A DNA stretch of 64,000 nucleotides from the NCBI GenBank assembly GCA_022606425.2, contig JAHDVF020000090.1:434001-498000 (forward strand). The letters are read 5' to 3'. The notes below the pieces were generated by a model. The model made no database searches. It was not told the DNA's origin and worked only from the letters and a program-made list of their open reading frames with translations. The translations under genes and the position numbers were made by a program. Source of the stretch: Lepidostoma basale (lineage: Eukaryota > Arthropoda > Insecta > Trichoptera > Lepidostomatidae). Positions 775 to 54,830 of the stretch are shown here, in pieces; within the stretch, counting starts at the first letter, position 1, and every line of letters starts with the position of its first letter.

Positions 775-3550
775 CAAAAAAATGTGATTGTTGTTACATA
801 AATACAATACCTACAGAACGGACTTGGACTTGGATCTTCTGGCTTACAGAGGTTCAGCTCATGTGGCTATTCCTCTTACGTCTGATGGGAACATTGTTGG
901 AAGGTGATTTGGTGGGTTGTTAGTTTATTCGGGGGCATGATTTGTGTGGCCCGGAGTGTTCCTCTGAAGGAGAATCGATTTTGGGCGCTTGTGGCGGCTG
1001 GAAGTGTTTGGGTCGTAATTAGAGAGGTCTTTTATTGTGGGGTTGGGATGTGAAGGGAGTCCTTTGTAAAAACGTTCGGCAAGTTTCAGAATGAATTCAT
1101 CTATCATCGGGATTCCCGATTCTAGGTGCAGTTGTGTAATCCTGGTCCATGAAGGCGCACCAAGCGATAAACGGATAGCCTTATTTTGCAGGATTTGGAG
1201 TTTTTGTATGTGACTCGAAGCTGCATAGCCCCAGATTGGGGCTGCATAAGTGAAGATCGGCCTTATAACCGTTTTGTATATCAGGAGTTTATTGTCGATG
1301 CTTAGTTTACTGTTTCTAGCTAACATTGGGTAGAGGGCTGAGATTGCTTTTGACGCGGCTTTGACTTTATTTGTAATGTGTGGCCTCCATGTCAGCTTAG
1401 AATCCAAGGTAACCCCAAGGTATTTGATTGTTTTGGTCCAAGGAACGTCTTGGCCGAACATTTTTATGTTGGGAATGTTTGGAGGAATGTGTCTTTTACT
1501 GAAAAGGGTCGCTGCGCTTTTACTCGGATTGATGGTAATGCGCCAGTTTCTGCACCACACCTCTAGCACATCGGCCTGTTTTTGCACCCTGCGGGTCGCG
1601 AGAAGCGGCCTTTTAGCACTGGAGATGATGCCCGTATCGTCAGCGAATTGGGCAATGTGGGTGTTCTGATCTCGGGGAAGAGGGATATCACTGCAGTAGA
1701 TGTTGAACAGAGTAGGAGCCATTACTGAACCTTGGGGAACTCCTGCTCTGATAGGGCGTACAAGGGATTTGGCCTTGTTGATTTTGACGCTGAAAAGGCG
1801 ATCGGACAGAAAGCTGGCTATGAGTTGAATCATAGGCAGTGGGATGTTTGCTTTTCCCATTTTGTATAACAGGCCGGTGTGCCAGACGCGGTCGAATGCT
1901 TTACTGACATCTAGGGAAAAGAAAGTGGTGAATTTGCGCGTGTTAAAGTTTGTGGCAATAAGTTCAACTACACGAAGTAGCTGATGTTGTGTGGAGTGTT
2001 GGGCACGGAAACCGTGTTGAAAATCTGGAATGGTACTCTGTTCGTGAAGTGTTGTTTTGAGTCTTGATTGTATGAGTTTTTCCAACAATTTACCAGTGCA
2101 AGGAAGAAGACTAATTGGTCTATGATTTGAAGGAGCTGTTGGGTCCTTGCCTGGCTTGGGAAGAAGGATAACGTCTGCGATTTTGTAGGGTTTCGGGAAG
2201 TATCGGAGTCTAAGGGATGCGTTGAAGATCGCTGTCAGGGCACAGATGCCTTTGAGAGGGAGAGATTTGAGAATTTTGTTAGATATTGAGTCAGGACCTG
2301 GTGATTTGCGGGTATTAAGATATTTTATTTGTTGTTTCACCTCCCTCGGTGAGGTGAATGGGATCGGTGGGGATGAAGGAGTTTTGGCTAAGAGTTGTGA
2401 AACGTTAGATTCGATCGAGGCCACGAATAATGGATTGTCATGTTCGTTATTTGTCGTGAATTGATCTTCTAGGCTCGATGTAAATGTTTCTGCCCTGTCG
2501 GCGTCGGAGTACACTAATCCATTTGGACCTTGTAATGGTGTGATTCTTGAGTGGGGTTTGCGAAGATTTTTGGATAATTTCCAGAAGGCTGTCTTGTCGT
2601 CATCGTTTAATGACTCTAGATAATCCATCCAGCGGTCATTGCGTAAGTCGGTGATGGCTTTTTTGACGTCAATGTTTAGTTTGTTGAGAAGTGTTTTATC
2701 CTGAGGTTGTCGATATTTTTGCCATCTTTTTCTAATGGTATTTTTGTGGCGTATTAGCTGTTGGATATCGGCAGGTAGATTTGGTCTGTATATGTCGTTG
2801 TCTACAACTGTGGTTGCATTTTTTAGAGCAGTCTGTAGGATAAATGTCATTTCATTCGTGACCTGATCGAGAGATTCTGGGTCTGGAATTTTTGTTGGGA
2901 TTTTGATCATTTCGTGGATGATTTCGGGAAGAGAATACCAATTAATTTTATTTCTGGTGGGTAAATGGGGGTCACGGTGGAATGGTTCATCAGAGATGTA
3001 GATAAGTATAGGGATATGATCAGAGGATAGTTCGTCTACTACCTGTAGGGTGAGAGGGAGGGTAAAGTTTTTAGTCATGACAATATCGATGACGTCCGGG
3101 GAATGTTTTGGATTTTTATTGAAAATTGTCGGAGTATCGGGAGCTGTGATGAATATATCTAGTCGATTTTGGAAATAGTCGAAAAGATCTTTGCCTTTCT
3201 TATTATCTTTGAGACTGTGCCAGGCGCCATGTTTGGAATTTAGGTCTCCAGCTAGGACTGTGGGAATGTTTTCGAAGAAAATATCGTCCAGTTCTATTGG
3301 AGTGAATCGTCTACGAGGTGGAGAGTAGGCGGAAATGAATTTAAGGGGACCAGAATTTTTTGTTTGTATCACTATAGCAGTGGTTTCAATATTTATGTTA
3401 GAAGGTGTTGTTGAGGAGCAATGCTGGAGGGATCCTACAGAACGATATTACATTACTTCATTGCAATTTGATTTAAATAGGATTTTAACTACAAATCCCA
3501 TTGACCTTGTTTGGACCGAAATCGATATTTTAAAGTATATTCATGAATAG
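775..3550 (-). mobile_element. Jockey-clade non-LTR retrotransposon, 5'-truncated
   Basis: A LINE lying on the minus strand. Its second open frame is nearly intact (see the coding entry at 925-3447), but the first open frame and the N-terminal part of the endonuclease are missing or out of frame beyond about 3450. The 3' untranslated region runs from 924 toward about 775, where the minus strand becomes A-rich (ATTTTTTTGTAAATAAA). Retrotransposition copies RNA by target-primed reverse transcription, so 5' truncation is expected. No convincing target duplication was found. Confidence 0.8.
925..3447 (-). CDS. Jockey-like ORF2: partial AP endonuclease plus reverse transcriptase
   Basis: The protein encodes the copying machinery of a LINE: an apurinic-type endonuclease that nicks target DNA and a reverse transcriptase primed at the nick. 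Counting from codon 3372-3370 (a GTG; the frame is open back to a TAA at 3448-3450, so this is not a true start), the endonuclease motif AGDLNSKHGAW is at residues 41-51 and the catalytic SSDHIP near 115-120. The RT follows: NHRPISLLPCTGKLLEKL, HGFRAQHST, DVSKAFDRVWH near 488-498, AGVPQGSVMAPTLFNIY, and the active-site QFADDTG near 574-580 (about 1635-1655). KYLGVTLDSKLTW marks the thumb side. About 100 N-terminal residues of the endonuclease are absent, so this copy is probably dead, although the remaining 815 codons contain no stop. Clade assignment to Jockey is from motif style. Confidence 0.85.
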   Translation of the reverse strand, partial: YRSVGSLQHCSSTTPSNINIETTAIVIQTKNSGPLKFISAYSPPRRRFTPIELDDIFFENIPTVLAGDLNSKHGAWHSLKDNKKGKDLFDYFQNRLDIFITAPDTPTIFNKNPKHSPDVIDIVMTKNFTLPLTLQVVDELSSDHIPILIYISDEPFHRDPHLPTRNKINWYSLPEIIHEMIKIPTKIPDPESLDQVTNEMTFILQTALKNATTVVDNDIYRPNLPADIQQLIRHKNTIRKRWQKYRQPQDKTLLNKLNIDVKKAITDLRNDRWMDYLESLNDDDKTAFWKLSKNLRKPHSRITPLQGPNGLVYSDADRAETFTSSLEDQFTTNNEHDNPLFVASIESNVSQLLAKTPSSPPIPFTSPREVKQQIKYLNTRKSPGPDSISNKILKSLPLKGICALTAIFNASLRLRYFPKPYKIADVILLPKPGKDPTAPSNHRPISLLPCTGKLLEKLIQSRLKTTLHEQSTIPDFQHGFRAQHSTQHQLLRVVELIATNFNTRKFTTFFSLDVSKAFDRVWHTGLLYKMGKANIPLPMIQLIASFLSDRLFSVKINKAKSLVRPIRAGVPQGSVMAPTLFNIYCSDIPLPRDQNTHIAQFADDTGIISSAKRPLLATRRVQKQADVLEVWCRNWRITINPSKSAATLFSKRHIPPNIPNIKMFGQDVPWTKTIKYLGVTLDSKLTWRPHITNKVKAASKAISALYPMLARNSKLSIDNKLLIYKTVIRPIFTYAAPIWGYAASSHIQKLQILQNKAIRLSLGAPSWTRITQLHLESGIPMIDEFILKLAERFYKGLPSHPNPTIKDLSNYDPNTSSRHKRPKSILLQRNTPGHTNHAPE

Positions 3551-3597: not shown

Positions 3598-3902
3598 GGA
3601 GAAAGAAAGATTAAATGTTATAAATGTATATGGTCTGTTTTACTAATTGTCTGTGAAACTTGGACTCTGAATGTAAATATAATGAACCAGTTGGAGGTGT
3701 TTAAGAGGTGTATATACCGCAGAATGCTCCGTATACCATGGACCAATAGGCAGTTGTCCTGGCTGCGGAACACAAAAGATTGGACAGGAATACCAGAGTC
3801 CAGAACCTATTCCAAGTGGCATAGGTCAGATGTGCAGTGTGTCTTGCTGCAGTGATCGCTAAAATTAAAGAGACCTGACACGGCACCGGAAGAAGAAGAA
3901 GC
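3598..3902 (+). mobile_element. RTE-type LINE 3' fragment with (GAA)n tail
   Basis: Frames encode pieces of the C-terminal region typical of insect RTE-like reverse transcriptases: C.TWTLNVN, NQLEVFKR.IYRRMLRIPW and then WLRN.KDWTGI. It ends in the tail GGAAGAAGAAGAAG at about 3887-3901. Frameshifts separate the pieces. Close relatives in the window are 9057-9605, 40135-40376 (minus) and 46385-46590. Confidence 0.7.
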
Positions 3903-4005
3903 TCAACTTGTACAAACTCGATGGCACCGTTTAAAAAAAAGAATTAATAAGGCAGTTAAAATGTTTATGTGGACACAATTACAAGAACCAAAATGTTAAA
4001 TTGGA

Positions 4006-4146
4006 GATAAATACGAGATTCTCCAACTCAAGTTGATGGGCGAAATTAAAGGATGTCGTGGTCCTGGCCGAAAGCTACCGTCTTACTAGCGCAACATCAA
4101 AGATCCGGCTGGAATAGAAAGTGTTGAGGAGTTATTCCGGGCGGCG
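4006..4146 (+). mobile_element. RTE 3' fragment, left half of a copy split by Transib
   Basis: Translates as an RTE C-terminus: ILQLKLMGEIKG, GPGRKLPSY and RNIKDPAGIESVEELFRAA. It stops abruptly at the GCGGCG where the Transib element begins. The reading continues at 7095 with CGGCGTAAGGCAGAGCC, which aligns with the RAAQDRDRFAEVI segment of the copy at 9057-9605. Removing 4147-7094 and one CGGCG rejoins the fragment in register. Confidence 0.75.
4142..4146. repeat. Left target-site duplication CGGCG of the Transib element
   Basis: CGGCG at 4142-4146 directly precedes CACATTG. The same five bases follow CACTGTG at 7095-7099. Five-base GC-rich duplications of this form are the rule for Transib transposons (established knowledge). 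Confidence 0.85.
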
Positions 4147-4184
4147 CACATTGGGGCAGGATTCAGATTTCTCATACAATAACC
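4147..4184 (+). promoter_or_regulatory. Left Transib terminus, RSS-like heptamer and nonamer-like block
   Basis: Heptamer-like CACATTG at 4147-4153. After 22 bases comes ACAATAACC at 4176-4184, which matches 8 of 9 bases of the V(D)J nonamer consensus ACAAAAACC. Transposase is expected to bind here. The right end has an exact CACAGTG heptamer (inverted, 7088-7094) but no convincing nonamer at 12 or 23 bases, so the nonamer match may be chance. Confidence 0.5.
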
Positions 4185-4420
4185 CAAAAAATAAAAATTA
4201 TGATTCATTAAACGCTTTGTTATTATATGATGACTCAGATATATTTAGCATATGATCACGAGCAGATAGACAAGCTAGACTGTGACACGTTCGCTCTAGC
4301 ACCCCTCAATCGGAGCCGATTACTCGTAGAGGTTACACGTCCGTTATTTCAAGTCAGCGCAACACCTAGTTTCTAACATTTCTTTAGTTGTATTATTGAT
4401 AAAAAATTTAAAGTTTTAGT

Positions 4421-4766
4421 ATGGAACCTTACACGTCAGGTATGTATCCTCTTTTTCGAGTTAAATTAATTGTAATTACGGCTTGTTTTAAATGTGAAAA
4501 AATTAAACCGATTTCACATTAAAATGATACAGAGGTTTTTGTAATATTAAAAAAACATTTAGAGATTTAGTATAGAATCCCGATGAATTCCGCAAGTATT
4601 TTAATTGATTTATAATAAGTAATTGTTGTACTTTATTGATATGATCTTATTTTTTGCCACTTTTTGCACTTTTTTATAATAACAGCACATTTCGAATAAC
4701 CAAAAATGAAAAAAAAATACACCAATTTTGTATCTTATTCTGTTTTTCCTTTTCTCGCATACCTAG
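4421..4766 (+). other. Candidate first exon and intron of the Transib transposase gene
   Basis: ATG at 4421 opens a 19-nt segment (MEPYTS) ending CAG at 4439, followed by a good donor GTATGT at 4440. A pyrimidine-rich acceptor TTTTCCTTTTCTCGCATACCTAG ends at 4766. Joining 4439 to 4767 enters exactly the frame that stays open, apart from three stops, to 5989. This is inferred from splice-site consensus only. Confidence 0.35.
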
Positions 4767-6788
4767 GTACCAGCTCCAGCACTTTGTTCATGACAAAGCA
4801 TCAATTAATAACGCTTATGAAGAGTTTCGGAAAAGAAAAATTGGAAGATCAGATTGATTTCCTGCAAAAAGAAATCGTAAAACGGACAGGGTGTGTTGAT
4901 GAGTTAGGAAAAAGTGTTACGTGTGTTAAAATTTTTATTCCGTTTAAATCATGATGGGAATCAGCTCACTGGATGAAAGAAAGATTTCTCGATGTTAATA
5001 AAACGTGGCTTGATACATCCGTTTCTTTCATTCGCGCTACAAAAACATGTGGCGGTCGCCCGATGATTCCTTTTGAGGAGAGTAAAGAAAGGGTGAAGTG
5101 GCAAAAGACGGTTAATCTGAGGAATTCTGCATCTCTGCCAGACTTACTCTACGCAACACAAATGGAACTTAGAGCTGCATGACAGGCAGATGCCTCAAAG
5201 TTGGTTCGAGGTATTTTATCTGTTCCAACAGGTTCAGGTAAATTTCATCAAACTTCCAGGGAGTCTTTTGGAAACGTGTTCATGTCAGCAGGAGATGCTT
5301 TAGCACTTTTAATAGAAGCGGACTTGCCTCCACATCAGTATAACGCTATTAAGTTGAAATCTAAAAACTTATATCCTTCGTATAAAACTGTACAGGCCTA
5401 AAAAAGACGATGTTATCCAGAGCCAGAAAATATACATGTCACGGATACTTTGGTATATGTTGATTTGCAGATCATGCTTAATCTCACGATTGAGCGTTTA
5501 ATTATCACCCATCAAGATGTTGTTTTTACACTCAAACCCAAAGAATTAAATAATATGATATTATATTCCAAATGGGGAGTTGATGGAAATTCGGAGCACA
5601 GTTCACATAAACAGGCTTTTTTTGACGCAGATGCCGATGATGCAGCGGTTTTTATCACATCATTTGCCCCCTTACGCCTAGTGTCTGGTGCCAAAATTAT
5701 TTGGCAAAATCCAAGACCTGGTTCAACGAGGTATTGCAGACCTCTGAAAATAGAATTTATTAAGGAATGCACAGCAGTACCTTTGGAAGAGAAACGAAGG
5801 GTAGATGAAGAAATAAAAAATATTACCACAACCATAGTCAGACTAGATGGGCGCGTTATCGTAATCAAACATCATTTAATATTCGCAATGATTGATGGCA
5901 AAGTATGTAATGCTATCTCACATACTTCTTCTACCCAAAAATGTTACATACGTGGTGCCACATCTAAACAATTGAATTATAATATATAGATGCATTGCTA
6001 ACAAAATAAATAAAAACAGAAAATTTAGAATTCGGCATTTCGGTCTTGCACGGATGGATACGCTTTTTTTAGTGTCTTCTCCATTTGACGTACAAACTGC
6101 CTATAAAAGCTCGAGGGACAGACAAGGAAATCGTTGAAGAAACTAAGAAAAAATTCAAGCTCAGTTCAAAGAAAAACTAGGTTTGATCGTGGACAAACCA
6201 AGCCGGGCTTTGGTAACACAAACGATGGAAATACCGCCAGGCGTTTTTTTTTTAAGTGCAGAGGTGTCTGCAGAAATAACCAATTTAGATGTAGAATTAA
6301 TTAGAAAAATGCACACCATTTTAATAGTTATATCATGTGGTCATGAAATTAGTGTGGAAAAATACCGGGAGTATGCGTTACATACAGCCAGATATTTTGA
6401 AGAAAAATATCCGTGGTGTAATATGCCACCCACACTTCACGAATATTTAATACACGGACCTGAAATAATAAAAACGTCAATATTGCCGATAGGTCAATTA
6501 ACCGAAGAAGCGCAGGAAGCACGTAACAAAGATTTTAAAAAGTTTAGGGAGTACCACTCGTGGAAATCCAGCAGAGCGAATTCAAACACGGATATTTTAA
6601 ATTTTCTTTTACTCTCATCAGATCCTTTAATAACTAGTAAGAGGAAATTACCGAAAGAGGAACTAACTAGATTCCTCAAAGACGTTTTGGATCTGATAAT
6701 ACCTCCATCTACAGGGTCCTCCAGCCAAAGCGAAAATGATGAATCCGATGACAATGATGGTGTCTCAGAAATATCTGATAACGAGTAA
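4767..6788 (+). pseudogene. Transib/RAG1-like DDE transposase, inactivated
   Basis: The protein would cut at the RSS-like ends by the RAG-type nick-hairpin reaction. From 4767 to 5989 one frame runs through, broken only by TGA 4952-4954, TGA 5180-5182 and TAA 5399-5401. Landmarks match the RAG1 core in order. ALALLIEADLPPHQYNAIK and the YPSYKTVQA block correspond to the RAG1 pre-RNase H region. YSKWGVDGNSEHS carries the first catalytic Asp (codon 5582-5584; RAG1 D600-like). NPRPGSTRYCRP follows. IDGK carries the second (5894-5896; D708-like). KCYIRGAT corresponds to the RAG1 CTLCDAT zinc knuckle, but its second Cys is Arg. Region 5990-6260 is frameshifted several times (SVLHGWIRFF, QAQFKEKLGLIVDKP, NTNDGNTARRFF). 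The last frame, to 6788, holds HEYLIHGPEIIK and QLTEEAQEARNKDFKKF with the catalytic Glu near 6504-6509 (E962-like), then an acidic C-terminus. It cannot make a working enzyme. Confidence 0.85.
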
Positions 6789-7094
6789 AAAAAATATTGG
6801 TGTGTATTTATGAAGGGTTAAATGGACGTTCTTTCAAGAAACGTATATATTATGTAAAACTAAGCTGCATTTTACGTTATTAAAAATAATAAAAAAATGA
6901 CTTTAACGAGCATATAAAAATAAGACAGTATTTGACACATATTTCATTGTTATTGGAAAAATAAAGTGTTAATATTCATGACATTGTCTCTTATTTTCAT
7001 TAACCTACCTAATTACATTAAATCCTTTGATTTATAGCTATATATATAGCTTCTATGAGTTAATGACACGTTTTCATATTTTGGCCCCACTGTG

Positions 7095-7172
7095 CGGCGT
7101 AAGGCAGAGCCTTGCAAAAGTGATTGCGAACGTCGGATATACCTGATATGAAACAAGAAGAAGAAGATAATG
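7095..7172 (+). mobile_element. RTE 3' fragment, right half with (GAA)n tail; begins with CGGCG duplication
   Basis: CGGCG (7095-7099) is the right Transib target duplication. The sequence then reads as the end of the RTE copy begun at 4006: the frame gives an AEVIASVGG-like VIANVGYT, followed by the tail ACAAGAAGAAGAAGA at about 7157-7171. It has no independent 5' part. Confidence 0.75.
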
Positions 7173-8805: not shown

Positions 8806-9047
8806 GTTATATGATTTAATTAATGTATCCACTTTTTTTTATTTGGCAGTAATTAGGCACTTAAAACCAACCAACACCAGCAAGAACTTTAAAAGAATAT
8901 TGAAGAAATTATTCAAATTGTCATTGGAACAAATGAAAAATTTATTTTTACACCTGTCAAAATTCTTTATATAAACGAAAAAACTTTATATATGATATCA
9001 ATATATAATATAACGAATATGTGTGTTTTAAATGTTTTCTTAAGTTA

Positions 9048-9614
9048 AGATTACGATAAAATGCAGAATTCAGGCAGTAAGGGCTACGTTTAATACAATG
9101 AAATCACTCTTCTGCAATGATAACGTAAACTTAAAACTCCGCCAGAGAATGATCAAATGCTATGTGTGGTCTGTTTTATTGTACGGATGTGAAACGTGGA
9201 CCTTGAAAGTTAACTCAATGAACAGACTGGAAGCATTTGAAATGTGGCTCCATCGCCGAATGCTCAGAGTTCCCTGGGCAGACATGGTTACCAATACCGA
9301 AGTCCTGAGGCGAGCTAAAGTTGACAGAGAACTGTTATTAAATTATCAAGGTTCGAAAGATCTCACATCTGAGTCATATACTGCGTGGGGAAAAGTACCA
9401 CCTTCTCCAACTGATATTGGAGGGGAAAATTGAGGGACGCCGAAGGTCCGGAAAGAGGCAAAAGTCCTGGCTGCGAAACGTGAGGGAGTGGACCGGCATC
9501 CGAAGTGTGGAGGAGCTGTTCCGAGCGGCACAGGACAGGGACAGGTTTGCCGAGGTGATCGCCAGCGTTGGGGGGACCCGACAGGGTACTTGAAGAAGAA
9601 GAAGAAGATTACGA
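9048..9614 (+). mobile_element. RTE-type LINE 3' fragment with (GAA)n tail and target duplication
   Basis: The insertion spans about 9057-9605. The direct repeat AGATTACGA flanks it at 9048-9056 and 9606-9614 and continues with an indel (TAAAATG / AATGG). The coding part to 9433 reads LRQRMIKCYVWSVLLYGCET, LEAFEMWLHRRMLRVPW and VLRRAKVDREL. After a frameshift near 9340 the C-terminus continues as LILEGKIEGRRRSGKRQKSW, LRNVREWTGIRSVEELFRAA and QDRDRFAEVIASVGGTRQGT. The tail is GAAGAAGAAGAAG at about 9593-9605. This is the clearest copy of its subfamily. Confidence 0.8.
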
Positions 9615-18595: not shown

Positions 18596-18838
18596 ACGAC
18601 CTTCGTGGCAGAGTGGTAAGAGCTCTGGCTTCCATACCGGAGGTTCCAGGTTCGATTCCCGGCGATGGCAGTGTGATTGTCACACTGTCATTGGTCTGGT
18701 GTAGAATTCACGTGACAATAAAATGGCGATAGATTGGCTACCTATCACATGTCACGAGAATCAATATAATAGCTAAAAAAATAATAACTGTATACAGTAA
18801 TTGGGTTCAAACAACCTGTTGTATACATAAAAAAAAAT
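18596..18838 (+). mobile_element. tRNA-headed SINE
   Basis: The head has an A-box-like GTGGCAGAGTGGTAAGAGC and a B box GGTTCGATTCC, the internal polymerase III promoter of tRNA-derived SINEs. The body follows: GTGTGATTGTCACACTGTC (a small hairpin), GTGTAGAATTCACGTGACAA, CTACCTATCACATGT. The end is GTTGTATACAT plus a poly(A) run. Relatives are 51205-51477, 61535-61775 (minus), 62773-62991 and the fragment at 32018-32077. Confidence 0.85.
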
Positions 18839-23140: not shown

Positions 23141-26095
23141 CATTATGATTATTAGTTTAATTTTTCTCAGTCAGCAGGAACTCTGTCGTCTTCAAGACGA
23201 AACATAGGTTTTTGTTCTTAAATAACCTATTCTGATTATCGATTTTCCTAAAATGTCAATTTTAAAACGAGTAAACTTGTAAATACTAGTTCAATCATAG
23301 TAAACATAACTTATTAATATACTTACATAATAATAATATAACAATTTTCAATATTAATCGATGAAATCCAGTTTAAAATCTAGAAAATTAAAAATATTTC
23401 GAAATATTATTGTTTATATAAAACTTCGTATATTTATAATGAATCACATTCTCGGTATTAAGAGAAACCAAAGGAGACTTTTGCACTTTATGTAATGTAA
23501 ATAACTTAATTAGCGTGAAGTGTAGAGAGGTCTCTTAATTCGTAGAACATTGTTAAGGGCAATTATTTATCATATTCTAGGATGTAGTTCCAATTACGAA
23601 ATATTGATTTCATTCAACGTTTCTTTATGAACACATTCGACCAATTACATTAGTTTATTTAGAATTTAAAGGCATAGAACGCAAACTTACAAATAACTTG
23701 TTCAATAAATAAAGTTCACTTATACTTTAGTGGATTTTAACTAAATTATACTTGAAAAAAATTCAGTAATTTTTTATATTCATTTTTTAAAATGAACTTC
23801 TTCCATTAAGTTTCAAATAACAACGCACCTTGCTACATTTGCAGTCTAAAAGAAGGTTCGATCATAGATCGATCGACCATAGGGACGACTACAATTGCAG
23901 CTCATATCATATGTACCTTGTAAATATTTCAACAATAGATCCATACTATAATAGATACTAAATTGTTCATCTTATTATTGTGAACTGAGACTATCTGTCT
24001 GGGATGTAAATGTAGCTAGCCCCAATTTTACACAATTTTTTTACTACTACAAATGAAGCCTTCGCACAATGGGGGTTAAAAAGGCAGAATAGAAACAAAG
24101 AGATTCGACGAACGGAGTAAGTCGACTAGAAATATGATGTTTAATCACTCTTCTTTGCGAAGTAAAATAAATAATAATTAAGTGCAAAGAAGGTCGGGGT
24201 GTATTATAGTTTGAGAGGAGTACTACTTTTATTTATATTACTCAAGTAATGATGTGTGATGGCGCTGTAAATATTAAAGATAAATTACAAATAAGAAAGC
24301 ATCTGCAGTTTCCGGAGATAAATGGACCAGAAGTACAAAACAATGTAGTTTAATGCATATTAATCCAACATTTCCCCGCAATAGTTATTCTGCATCCTTC
24401 CTCTACTAAGGCCATTTCTATTCTAAACAGTTTGGAATTTTCAAAGTTTTCCCCATATCTTTCAATACATCATATTAAAAATTGTAGATTTCTATACATA
24501 ATGGAGTAATTAGAGATTTTAGGGTTCAATCTTGGGTAGTAAAGTACAAAGAGACGTAGACGTCATATTGTAAATTAAAAAGTTATCGACGTGGTATATA
24601 TGTGTGTAGCTGTCAGTTATTACGACATATACAGTATTTATTCAAATTTATTCCAAAAATGTCTCCCAGTATCTACCGCCTAGTTTAAGGAAACCTTTGA
24701 AATTAAAAAATATATAAAACACTTAAATTGTTTGAATATGGTTATTGGGTGTACGTATAACGGCTTATATCCCAATAACCCGCCGTTGAGCTCGTTGAAT
24801 TAAAATAAAACACTTTTGTAGAGCACAACATTTGCATTTATGTGTTTCATCTGAGCATCATTGTGCGTAGTTCGACACTTTAGCGAACCACCTAAAATGA
24901 ACGCCACAATGTGAAAATGGTAGATTGCAGTGCACGACCGACTCTGGAGTGGGCTTCAATGGTATTGGCGGAAACATCCGATTGTGATTTTAAATCTGGG
25001 TACATAACACGCGTCACGTGCACCGCTGCACGTCCGCGGCCGTTACACCTGCCAATTGATTACAAAGCCGACATATCCATTTGGCTTTCATTCGAAAATT
25101 TATGGATTTATTAGAGGAGAAAAATTCTTCATTTATTTGTGAATACAAATTTACTTGAATTCAGTTTTAAAAAAGAGCATACAAGTTCAAAATTTTAGAC
25201 ATTAATTAGTTAGAACATTGAAAAATATATCAATAACTGAAAGTACTTTTGTGTTCGCTACAGTCGTGACAAAGCTGCTGACGCTGTTCTTCCGTGACCA
25301 ATAATGGGTGGTTCACTTTGTCTCGAGGGGAAATATCGCGTATTTATGCGCATAATTTGCCTCCCCACGAAACATATTTTCAGAGCGGCGAGCTCAAATT
25401 TTGATACATTATTTTACTGCGAAAGCTGAAAACAATTATTTCGCCTTTTATCTATTAAAATTTCACTATCCATTGGCGCCCCGCCAGCTCGAATATACTG
25501 TATATCAAAATAATTTTAAACAGAATTTGTTATAATTTAGAAGTTAGTGTAATAAACTGAAAACTTTATTTTTATTTAAACTTATTATTACCACTAGCCG
25601 TGGGTTGTTGAAGGCATGGACGTCCCTCCTCTGATGATTTATATAGCGAGCGCGTGAATGGAGTGAGTCAGTTCTTGAGTAAAATGCTCGGCTTCAGCGC
25701 TTTCCTCTTTTAGATGAGCTAATTACATTGTACATAATTAAATCTCTTCTTAATGTTTCAAAGATAACTATAAATAAATTCAAGCTATCTCATCTTCCTC
25801 TCGGACGAGGAATATTAATTTCTTCTTGTAATCTTGAACACTAGAGCAAATTTTAATTTAGCGTGTTACATATTACATACACGTATAGCGCGTGGCATAT
25901 GATGGATGGTTCTGGGAGTTAGCCCATATAAATCATTGCTAACTCGTCCTAAAGAAGCGAAGTCAAAACTTTTATTTGAGTGAATGAAACTATCCGACGG
26001 ATTCACTTCTGATGTCGCCTGAGAAACCGATCACGATGCAAATTGAATTATAGAAAAATATACTTTCTCGAGTATTGTACCTCATATCCGAATTA
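23141..26095. other. No gene recognised, about 3 kb
   Basis: AT-rich. Slightly GC-richer blocks at 24880-25060 and 25300-25480 have no supported frame, splice pair or repeat. The 67-codon frame at 24911-25114 is not recognisable. Confidence 0.35.
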
Positions 26096-30593: not shown

Positions 30594-31906
30594 TTAACCC
30601 TAGAAAGATAATCATATTGTGTAGTACGGAAAAGATAGTCATGCGTAAAATTGACGCATGTGTTTTAATTAGCTGCAGATCGAGGTTTATTAATTTATTT
30701 CAATAATTTTTTTGTGATTATTTATTTACACATATATAAGAATAATTTATTTATTTAAAAAAAAAAAAAACTTTAAACTTCTTCTATAAATCAATGAAAT
30801 TCTTTAACACTTACTCTTTCATACGAAAACTTATTTTTTACTACAATAATCAGTCTTTTTTTAGTACAAAAGCAACAATTAGCATATCTTATATATGTAT
30901 ATATTAGGAACACATAGTTATATAAAAATCAGTTACAAACAGCTTTGGCACATATCAACGTTATGTTCACAACATTTTTTTTTTTACTTTTTTTGCAGGA
31001 CGCATTTGCCTTTCGCCTTATTTTAGAAGGGCAAAACGAACAATAAATACGTTTTTTTGCTACTGGCTTATCGGTATTGTTTTCCGATGTACCAGGTACT
31101 TTATTTGGCATCCTATTAAAGATATTATCTCGCAAATATCTCTTCAAAGTAGGTGCTTCTAAACGTCTACGCATAAACGAAGAAGACAGACCCAAGCTAA
31201 GATTTTTCACAATTTTTTTGCGACTTAGAGGCTTTTCTCCTTTGTTGTTAACATTGTGGCTGTAAATTATATATGCGTTTATACAGGCAATGTTTATCAT
31301 TCCATACAAGAAAGCCATTGGCCATCTATTCGTCTTCCTACTCTTTTGTTTGATTATAATACATAATTGCCCGTCTAAGATTACACTTCTACTTGGCGTT
31401 GGCTGTTCTCCTTGTACCTCATCAATAAAAGCTTCTTCTGTGTCGCTCTGGGCGTCATCTTCACTTTCGTGGTCCGCTACTTCACTATCGGTATCCTCAC
31501 CGGGAAGCTCGTCATCATTTTGCATAAGAGTGGCCAGGATATGGTCTTCGTCCAAGTTCCTACTCCCCATTCAATTATATTTTTACCTAAATATCTATAA
31601 AAAGAAAATTATAATATAAGTTATGGTATAAAATACTTACAGATACATAAAATAATAAAACTATCATTATAAGTCAAAATCATCAAAGTCACGTAAAAGA
31701 TAATCATGCGTAATTTTGACTCACGCGTTCGTTATATTTCAAAATCGGTGACACTTACCTTATCGACATGTACCCCACACGGCAGCTCTCAGCGACGAAT
31801 GAGATGTCTTAAACGCACAGCTATGGATTCACGCGATTTAGAAAGAGAGAGCAATATTTCGCAAACGCATGCGTAAATTTTACGCAGACTATCTTTCTAG
31901 GGTTAA
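30594..31906 (-). mobile_element. piggyBac transposon (IFP2-like), internally deleted, TTAA to TTAA
   Basis: The element is 30598-31902 (1305 bp; autonomous IFP2 is about 2.5 kb) flanked by TTAA at 30594-30597 and 31903-31906. Left end: 13-bp TIR CCCTAGAAAGATA, 31-bp spacer, 19-bp inner repeat TGCGTAAAATTGACGCATG (30642-30660). Right end, read inward: CCCTAGAAAGATA, 3-bp spacer GTC, TGCGTAAAATTTACGCATG. This 13-31-19 / 13-3-19 asymmetry is the signature of piggyBac. The gene between is shortened (see next entry). Both ends look intact, so it could be moved by a transposase supplied from elsewhere. Confidence 0.93.
30929..31570 (-). pseudogene. piggyBac transposase, N- and C-terminal ends fused by internal deletion
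   Basis: 213 codons against about 594 in IFP2. Residues 1-66 are the acidic N-terminus (MGSRNLDEDHILATLM, then DDAQSDTEEAFIDEV). After VILDGQ the frame passes through a short junction (LCIIIKQK) and resumes with SRKTNRWPMAFLYGMINIAC, which in IFP2 lies just after the third catalytic Asp (D447). All three catalytic Asp residues (D268, D346, D447; from memory of IFP2) are therefore absent. The basic stretch CPSKIRRKANASCKK, near the known nuclear-localisation region, is present. The expected C-terminal cysteine-rich tail (CCEHNVDMCQSC) is one frame off because of an 11-base T run at 30975-30985 on the plus strand. It cannot catalyse transposition. Confidence 0.9.
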
Positions 31907-53765: not shown

Positions 53766-54830
53766 TATGGAATAAGTACAAAACTGATCACGGCCATTAA
53801 GTCGCTATACACGGAAAGCACTGCTAGTGTCAGAGTAAATGGAGATCTTACAGCCTGGTTTGATATCAATAAAGGTGTCAAACAAGGTTGCGTAATGTCC
53901 CCGTGGTTATTTAATCTGTATATGGACAATTGTATGAGAGAGCTGAAAGGGTTGGATGTAGGTGCCAAAATGAGCGGAGTGTCAGTAAGCTGTCTCTTGT
54001 ATGCGGATGACGCTGTCCTACTTGCAGACAACGAGCATGAACTACAAGTCCTGGTGAATTGTATGTATGAGGTATGCATGCGAAATGATCTGATGATGAA
54101 TGTTAATAAGTCCAAGGTAATGATTTTTGAAAAGGAAGAAACCACGACAGTCTGCAACATTAGCGTGAATGGTGAAAACTTGGAGCAAGTAGTTGAGTTT
54201 GTGTATTTAGGTAGTATGTTTACAAGAGATGGGAGAGTGGAGAGGGATATTGAAAGAAGGGTTGGGGCAGGCAACAAAGTGAATGGTGCACTTAAAGTTG
54301 TCATCGCAAACAAAAACCTATCCAAAAAAGCTAGAATGGCAGTGCACAATGGTGTTCTTCTACCGACCCTTATGTATGGAAGCGAAGCATGGAACTGGCA
54401 AAGGAAGGATGAAAGTAGAATAAATGCAGTAGAAATGAGATCTCTTAGACGAATGTGTGGATATTCTGTGTATGATAGAGTGTCGAATGAAAATATAAGA
54501 AGTGAATGCGGTGCGAATGATGGTGTCATGAACAAAATAATGAAAGGATCATTAAGATGGTTTGGACATATGGAAAGAATGAATGAAGAAAGAATGGTAA
54601 AAAAATTATATGTTAATGATGTAAATGGTACCAGAAATAGAGGAAGACCAAGGAAAACGTGGCACGATCAAATAAATCAAATATTGAATGTCGGCCATGT
54701 GAGGAGTCAGAGAAATCGACGCGCGTGCATGACACGATGTATGAATGTTGAGGAAGCGAGAGAAATATGTCAGGAAAGAAAGGTGTGGCAGTCCATTCTT
54801 TCTGCCTACCCCTTCGGGGAGACGGCGTGA
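53766..54830 (+). CDS. RTE reverse transcriptase, C-terminal two-thirds of the RT domain to the stop
   Basis: An open frame without stops from about 53766. YGISTKLITAIKSLY and GVKQGCVMSPWLFNLYMDN (RT block B) are followed by CLLYADDAVLLADNEHEL with the YADD active site at 54003-54014. Next come NVNKSKVMIFEKE, FVYLGSMFTRDGRVERDIER, and the C-terminal domain: LPTLMYGSEAWNWQRKDESR, RRMCGYSVYDRVSNEN, GSLRWFGHMERMNEERMVKK, RNRGRPRKTWHDQ, ending KVWQSILSAYPFGETA at 54830. The endonuclease and the N-terminal RT blocks are missing through 5' truncation, so it is inactive alone. An antisense 258-codon frame here is a shadow. Confidence 0.85.
   Translation, partial: YGISTKLITAIKSLYTESTASVRVNGDLTAWFDINKGVKQGCVMSPWLFNLYMDNCMRELKGLDVGAKMSGVSVSCLLYADDAVLLADNEHELQVLVNCMYEVCMRNDLMMNVNKSKVMIFEKEETTTVCNISVNGENLEQVVEFVYLGSMFTRDGRVERDIERRVGAGNKVNGALKVVIANKNLSKKARMAVHNGVLLPTLMYGSEAWNWQRKDESRINAVEMRSLRRMCGYSVYDRVSNENIRSECGANDGVMNKIMKGSLRWFGHMERMNEERMVKKLYVNDVNGTRNRGRPRKTWHDQINQILNVGHVRSQRNRRACMTRCMNVEEAREICQERKVWQSILSAYPFGETA

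Follow-up and report, generated by a model that had tools for sequence, protein, structure and literature searches.

A recently mobile, full-length Transib family with a broken transposase gene in the caddisfly Lepidostoma basale

Transib elements are cut-and-paste relatives of the V(D)J recombinase. Target duplications of 5 base pairs (bp) and ends that start with CAC are described for both Transib and RAG transposition (PMC8355894, PMC4411706, PMC3276498, PMC7204232). In Drosophila, the 5-bp duplication is modal for hopper and transib2 (532/533 and 7/7 sites), and the target motif given for these two Transibs is CCANTGG (PMC3276498). Protostome RAGL elements are described with CAC ends, 5-bp duplications and the end consensus CACTWMCAAAC... 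(PMC7204232), and the legend of Fig. 2 in PMC8355894 names the Anopheles gambiae Transibs N1 to N3. In this study, we have examined an element at 4147-7094 (+) of a stretch of 64,000 nucleotides from Lepidostoma basale (GCA_022606425.2, contig JAHDVF020000090.1, positions 434,001 to 498,000; hereafter the window). Based on our results, we conclude with a probability of roughly 0.92 that it belongs to a non-autonomous, full-length Transib family, dead but recently mobile, which reached about 180 copies through a transposase encoded at another locus, for which an intact sister such as the open-frame element C1304 is the most likely origin.

With the active Helicoverpa zea Transib of Protein Data Bank (PDB) entry 6pqn and its kin, the locus shares a homologous transposase core over both halves, CAC-starting ends and GC-rich 5-bp duplications; the key distinction is that the transposase of the window copy is broken. 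Drosophila hopper and transib2 have the 5-bp duplication in common with the window family, whereas their target is CCANTGG and that of the window family is mostly CGNCG (22/29). Like N1 to N3 of A. gambiae, in which N presumably stands for non-autonomous, the family would be moved by a transposase acting in trans. Many non-autonomous families are deletion derivatives; unlike N1 to N3, the window family is near full length, carries point damage, and has an open-frame sister with the same ends in the same assembly. The similarity to the C-terminal RAG1 core, the CAC ends and the 5-bp duplications are also shared with RAG1/RAG2 and RAGL (ProtoRAG, protostome RAGL), yet the Pfam RAG1 match stays under the curated cut-off and is far weaker than the Transib match. 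The element was not assigned to the RAGL transposons, as its ends, compared by eye, are unlike CACTWMCAAAC... and it matches Transib much more closely than RAG1L.

The element is 2948 bp long and flanked by CGGCG on both sides in the window sequence, with the ends and the duplication correctly given, letters and coordinates alike, by the original prediction. Its 11-bp ends, CACATTGGGGC on the left and CACAGTGGGGC on the right (as reverse complement), differ at a single base. The window contains 149 convergent pairs of CACWNTG heptamers at spacings of 100-8000 bp, and no pair other than that of the element has an identical 5-bp flank (0.23 expected); a second Transib pair, at 24065 / 24913, was ruled out because its flanks are unlike. 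As in other Transibs, both heptamers have the CAC start and resemble the heptamer consensus of recombination signal sequences (RSS). On the left, the heptamer reads CACATTG or CACAATG, and on the right CACAGTG; the form CACA(T/G)TG proposed earlier therefore has to be widened to include A. A nonamer-like block on the left, ACAATAACC, is suggestive with its spacer of 22; no partner for it was found at the right end, where the best candidate matches 6/9 with a spacer of 10.

The boundaries are settled independently by copies elsewhere in the window's own assembly (768.8 Mb, in which the window is C1517:434001-498000). In a DNA search, all 40 scored matches of 194 candidates, the window included, span positions 1-2948 at 98-100% identity. 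With up to 3 mismatches, the left-end 25-mer occurs at 183 places and the right-end 25-mer at 185, and the reversed controls at none. Among 100 left ends listed, 39 have CACATTG and 61 CACAATG; the 100 right ends listed, exact matches being placed first and 85 of the 185 lying outside this set, are all exact and hence have CACAGTG. The exact left 11-mer was found at 88 places (control 37), and 69 of these were examined: the window, eight loci (L001-L008) and 60 fetched loci. Seven of the eight were unrelated and one (C92) was a copy, entered again as L009; C1304 was among the 19 places outside the fetched set and was read later. In the comparison of 61 loci, 30 had no match to the element and 31 had the element, at full length in 29 and in pieces in two (L015 and L043, left out of the alignment below). 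This choice of loci selects for constancy of the left end, and not for that of the right end or the duplications. The observation is decisively confirmed, because all 29 full-length copies share the two ends and have an exact 5-bp duplication: CGACG in 7, CGGCG in 6, CGCCG in 5, CGTCG in 4, CGCTG in 3, and CGGCT, CAACG, CATCG and GGGCG in one each, that is, CGNCG in 22. Ends that run on in other copies, which would have spoken against the original prediction, were looked for and not seen: the copies stop at these bases. The duplication is CGCTG in one CACAATG copy whose two ends were read. Only one pair among the 29 copies (L033/L069) has 40-bp flanks more than 60% alike. Segmental duplication was rejected as the origin of the copies. 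No search was aimed at retrotransposon copies that contain the element as a regular component, but the 29 copies lie in different surroundings apart from this pair. The members of this pair lie on different contigs, both have CGCTG, and their flanks are 70% and 90% alike over 40 bp; either the element entered a repeat or the region was duplicated, and the two copies are possibly not independent.

The assignment to the Transib superfamily held up in the searches of the translations. Against the solved transposase 6pqn, 5450-5986 matches with E 1.3e-28, 6183-6785 with E 1.2e-37, and the first half of the coding remnant, with stops read as X, with E 4.8e-39; the piece 4973-5179 alone had no match in the PDB. 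RAG1-like and RAG1 chains were matched far more weakly (6b40, E 0.0017, C-terminal part), and Pfam gave only sub-threshold matches for five pieces of the element (RAG1 E 0.0029, Nup98_GLEBS 0.015, Trep_Strep 0.037, DapB_C 0.29). We built a profile of 674 positions from 88 Transib relatives of 620-715 amino acids (aa). The window element covers positions 1-667 of it, spread over three frames: 1-501 (4790-6256), 397-468 (5956-6159) and 442-667 (6078-6755). The RAG1-like blocks are in order, as first proposed, in a gene broken into three frames with stops. Despite the broken frame, the three acidic codons of the DDE triad stand at columns conserved in 88/88 relatives, and their catalytic roles are those labelled in Table 1. 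Among named Transib proteins, those of Macrosiphum euphorbiae come closest (68% and 52% identity), and in a 35-row tree the window sequence groups with two other sequences and Macrosiphum with support 100/99. The coding part probably opens with a 19-nucleotide exon at 4421 and resumes after an intron: MDPSTSG occupies this place in the relative P0109, and the open-frame C1304 shares the exon and its donor. Position 4767, from which the original prediction takes its translations, would accordingly be the start of exon 2. Profile matches span 4790-6755, and the element has otherwise only short open reading frames (ORFs) in the ORF list; nothing in that list was recognised as a RAG2-like gene, and no RAG2 profile search was made. 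A search for Transib relatives in viral contigs gave 56 pattern stretches, none of them confirmed.

The enclosed gene is a pseudogene, and its damage is common to the window copy and the 29 full-length copies, which we aligned; stop and codon counts from this alignment are independent of the profile. None of the 30 copies matches the profile in a single frame, so that an intact transposase frame is absent from the window copy and from 29/29 others. The copies differ pairwise by 1.07% on average (range 0.17-1.80%). They carry 291 singleton and 58 shared variants, the tips make up 90% of the tree length, and the singletons fall on codon positions 69/55/62 without bias (p 0.46). A star-like divergence of about 1% without codon-position bias means that the copies multiplied after the gene broke. 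Since the same codons are broken in copies with sites of their own, which could not have happened independently, the enzyme must have come from elsewhere. The window copy is therefore a pseudogene of a dead family that was already dead when it spread. CACAATG-subtype copies matched in the protein search also show stops.

As to the source of the enzyme, we searched the assembly at the protein level and scored 64 of 2165 candidates, which gave 84 matches; among the scored candidates, there was one uninterrupted close relative, at C1304:36070-38073. Its stop-to-stop frame has 702 codons, 676 of them past the putative acceptor, and scores 977 bits against the profile. Its ends are CACATTGGGGC on the left and GCCCCACTGTG on the right, with CGCCG on both sides, and it is 92.9% identical to the window element over query positions 1-2728 and 88.8% over 2735-2948. 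The family differs from C1304 by 144 substitutions present in at least 27/30 copies, which within the frame fall evenly on codon positions 32/25/32 (p 0.57), and, among four indels located in the frame, by two that are near-fixed and frameshifting. When amino-acid changes were polarised with outgroups, 32-33 were assigned to the family lineage, 3-8 to that of C1304, and 24-28 were undecided. From this pattern, we infer that most of the roughly 5% change before the burst accumulated when the gene of the founder lineage had already been broken. C1304 is a plausible source acting in trans.

Several points weigh against this account. Between its stop codon and its right end, C1304 (L073/L072) carries an extra stretch of 747 bp, and its role as a source presupposes that its putative transposase is expressed and active. 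Other sources may exist, as 64 of the 2165 protein candidates were scored. Of about 183 copies, the base-by-base alignment covers 30, which apart from the window copy were selected for an exact left end CACATTGGGGC, and the CACAATG subtype was seen in search tables and in the ends of one copy.

The best surviving alternative to the C1304 lineage as provider of the enzyme is another open Transib of the genome or a source that has since disappeared. Further Transib-like frames are indeed uninterrupted, at C610:922305-924293 (746 aa), C373:243855-245828 and C1205:54357-56330 (721 aa each). However, identity to the query P0100 is 50% for C610 and 42% for C373/C1205, as compared to 65% for C1304, which is also the one open-frame element whose ends were read; we regard this alternative as unlikely, though worth keeping in mind. 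There is very little to be said for a functional gene whose shared stops and shifts would be introns or recoded codons: a good intron candidate does lie at the 5' end (4440-4766), but the stops stand inside conserved peptide blocks without a gap, TGA, TAA and TAG are all used, the stops are missing from the 93%-identical C1304 frame, and the variants have no codon-position bias. Equally hard to believe is that each copy was autonomous at insertion and decayed later on its own, in the way that premature stops and frameshifts are described as typical of most inactive, genome-fossilised transposons (PMC4411706); this is refuted for the 30 aligned copies, because separate decay would not hit the same codons, as the same five stops are found in 26-30/30 copies and the cysteine loss in 30/30, in copies with their own duplications and with flanks that differ except in one pair.

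Our preferred reading, a dead family moved in trans, would imply the following history. Nonsense changes, frameshifts and the replacement of a conserved cysteine would have deprived a founder of its transposase but left both ends in place, and this founder would then have been cut and pasted about 180 times by a transposase from elsewhere, most likely supplied by an intact sister such as C1304. The transposase of the intact lineage would bind the ends of dead copies and cut at CAC, presumably through RAG-like nick-hairpin chemistry, which is established for Transib. Insertion with a 5-bp stagger into mostly CGNCG sites would duplicate 5 bp each time, and in the window the element would have landed in an old retrotransposon-like 3' fragment. 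A more specific version, to which we give about even odds, is that a transposase-dead, full-length lineage rode along as a passenger over a period several times the age of the burst (about 5% change before it and about 0.5% in each copy afterwards), that its intact sister then raised it to about 180 copies, and that heptamer position 5 was free to vary (A, T or G). If true, this would make the family a natural test of which RSS-like ends a living RAG1-family transposase accepts and of the titration of a source by dead copies.

The link to RAG1 is itself textbook knowledge; what is notable is a clear, recent, trans-mobilised dead family together with an open-frame sister in one genome. With about 180 natural insertions from a recent burst, ends and sites known exactly and an open-frame relative at hand, target choice (mostly CGNCG) and the tolerated heptamers CACATTG, CACAATG and CACAGTG can be studied on ready data. 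The family also illustrates clearly how dead copies multiply at the expense of an active element, the idea known as "vertical inactivation".

The original prediction also argued that removing the element and one CGGCG restores the split fragment, which it labels RTE. The joined flanks do match similar fragments of the window better, with scores of 44, 36, 32 and 23 for four of these, and random right flanks reached the same level in 2, 4, 34 and 122 of 2000 trials, respectively. For the fragment scoring 23, the right flank alone also scores 23, so that joining brings no gain, and the best-scoring cut position is not unique, which leaves the exact cut unfixed. Alone, the split-fragment argument is of moderate strength. 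The ORF 9044-9430, beside one of the similar fragments, has no Pfam match. Directly upstream of the split fragment, a second retrotransposon-like 3' fragment with a GAA-rich tail was seen by eye at 3600-3900.

Table 1. Features of the Transib element and its insertion site (positions in the window)
Feature	Position	Strand	Basis or remark
Left part of interrupted retrotransposon-like 3' fragment	3901..4146	+	Flank comparison; RTE label from the original prediction
Left target-site duplication CGGCG	4142..4146	.	Sequence; exact 5-bp duplications in 29/29 other full-length copies
Complete non-autonomous Transib-superfamily element, 2948 bp	4147..7094	+	Ends, full-length genome copies, end census
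Left terminal inverted repeat CACATTGGGGC, heptamer CACATTG (CACAATG in other copies)	4147..4157	+	
A-rich nonamer-like ACAATAACC	4176..4184	+	22 bp past left heptamer; 8/9 against the RSS nonamer; significance uncertain
Putative coding exon 1 (MEPYTS and first base of G), 19 nucleotides	4421..4439	+	Sequence; P0109 MDPSTSG; C1304
Putative phase-1 intron, GT...AG	4440..4766	+	Sequence; frame resumes at 4769; same arrangement in C1304
Transib transposase pseudogene, three frames	4767..6788	+	Profile and PDB matches
Premature stop	4952..4954	+	29/30 copies
Premature stop	5180..5182	+	30/30 copies
Premature stop	5399..5401	+	26/30 copies; other 4 with a gap in the codon
Asp codon, first catalytic position (KWGxDG)	5582..5584	+	D in 88/88 relatives, 29/30 family copies
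Asp codon, second catalytic position (M[IV]DGK)	5894..5896	+	D in 88/88 relatives, 30/30 family copies
Second Cys of CxxC replaced by Arg	5951..5953	+	Arg in 30/30 copies; Cys in 88/88 relatives
Premature stop	6007..6009	+	29/30 copies
Premature stop	6070..6072	+	30/30 copies
Glu codon, third catalytic position (EARNK)	6516..6518	+	E in 88/88 relatives, 29/30 copies (1 gap); aligned to RAG1L 6b40
AATAAA, possible polyadenylation signal	6888..6893	+	Second at 6960-6965
Right terminal inverted repeat CACAGTGGGGC, heptamer CACAGTG; top-strand letters GCCCCACTGTG	7084..7094	-	
Right target-site duplication CGGCG	7095..7099	.	Sequence
Right part of interrupted fragment, GAA-rich tail	7100..7168	+	Flank comparison

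Other mobile elements are present in the window. At 925-3372 (-), an open frame of 815 aa has endonuclease and reverse-transcriptase domains (Pfam RVT_1 E 2.4e-42) and is jockey/X-element-like by its named matches; its length suggests recent activity. For this reverse-transcriptase ORF, which neighbours the Transib, no organism-named match above 40% was found among the 120 matches listed. Another ORF, of 311 aa, at 53895-54827 (+), holds the C-terminal part of a reverse transcriptase (RVT_1 E 4.2e-11). An internally deleted piggyBac-type element lies at 30594-31906, both ends of which match exactly the piggyBac end motif TTAACCCTAGAAAGATA; its ORF of 213 aa, at 30932-31570 (-), joins N- and C-terminal parts of a piggyBac transposase (6x67, E 3.2e-81). 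Finally, the sole Rfam match in the window is a weak transfer RNA (tRNA) match at 18599-18670 (30.8 bits, E 0.019), possibly the tRNA-derived head of a short interspersed element.

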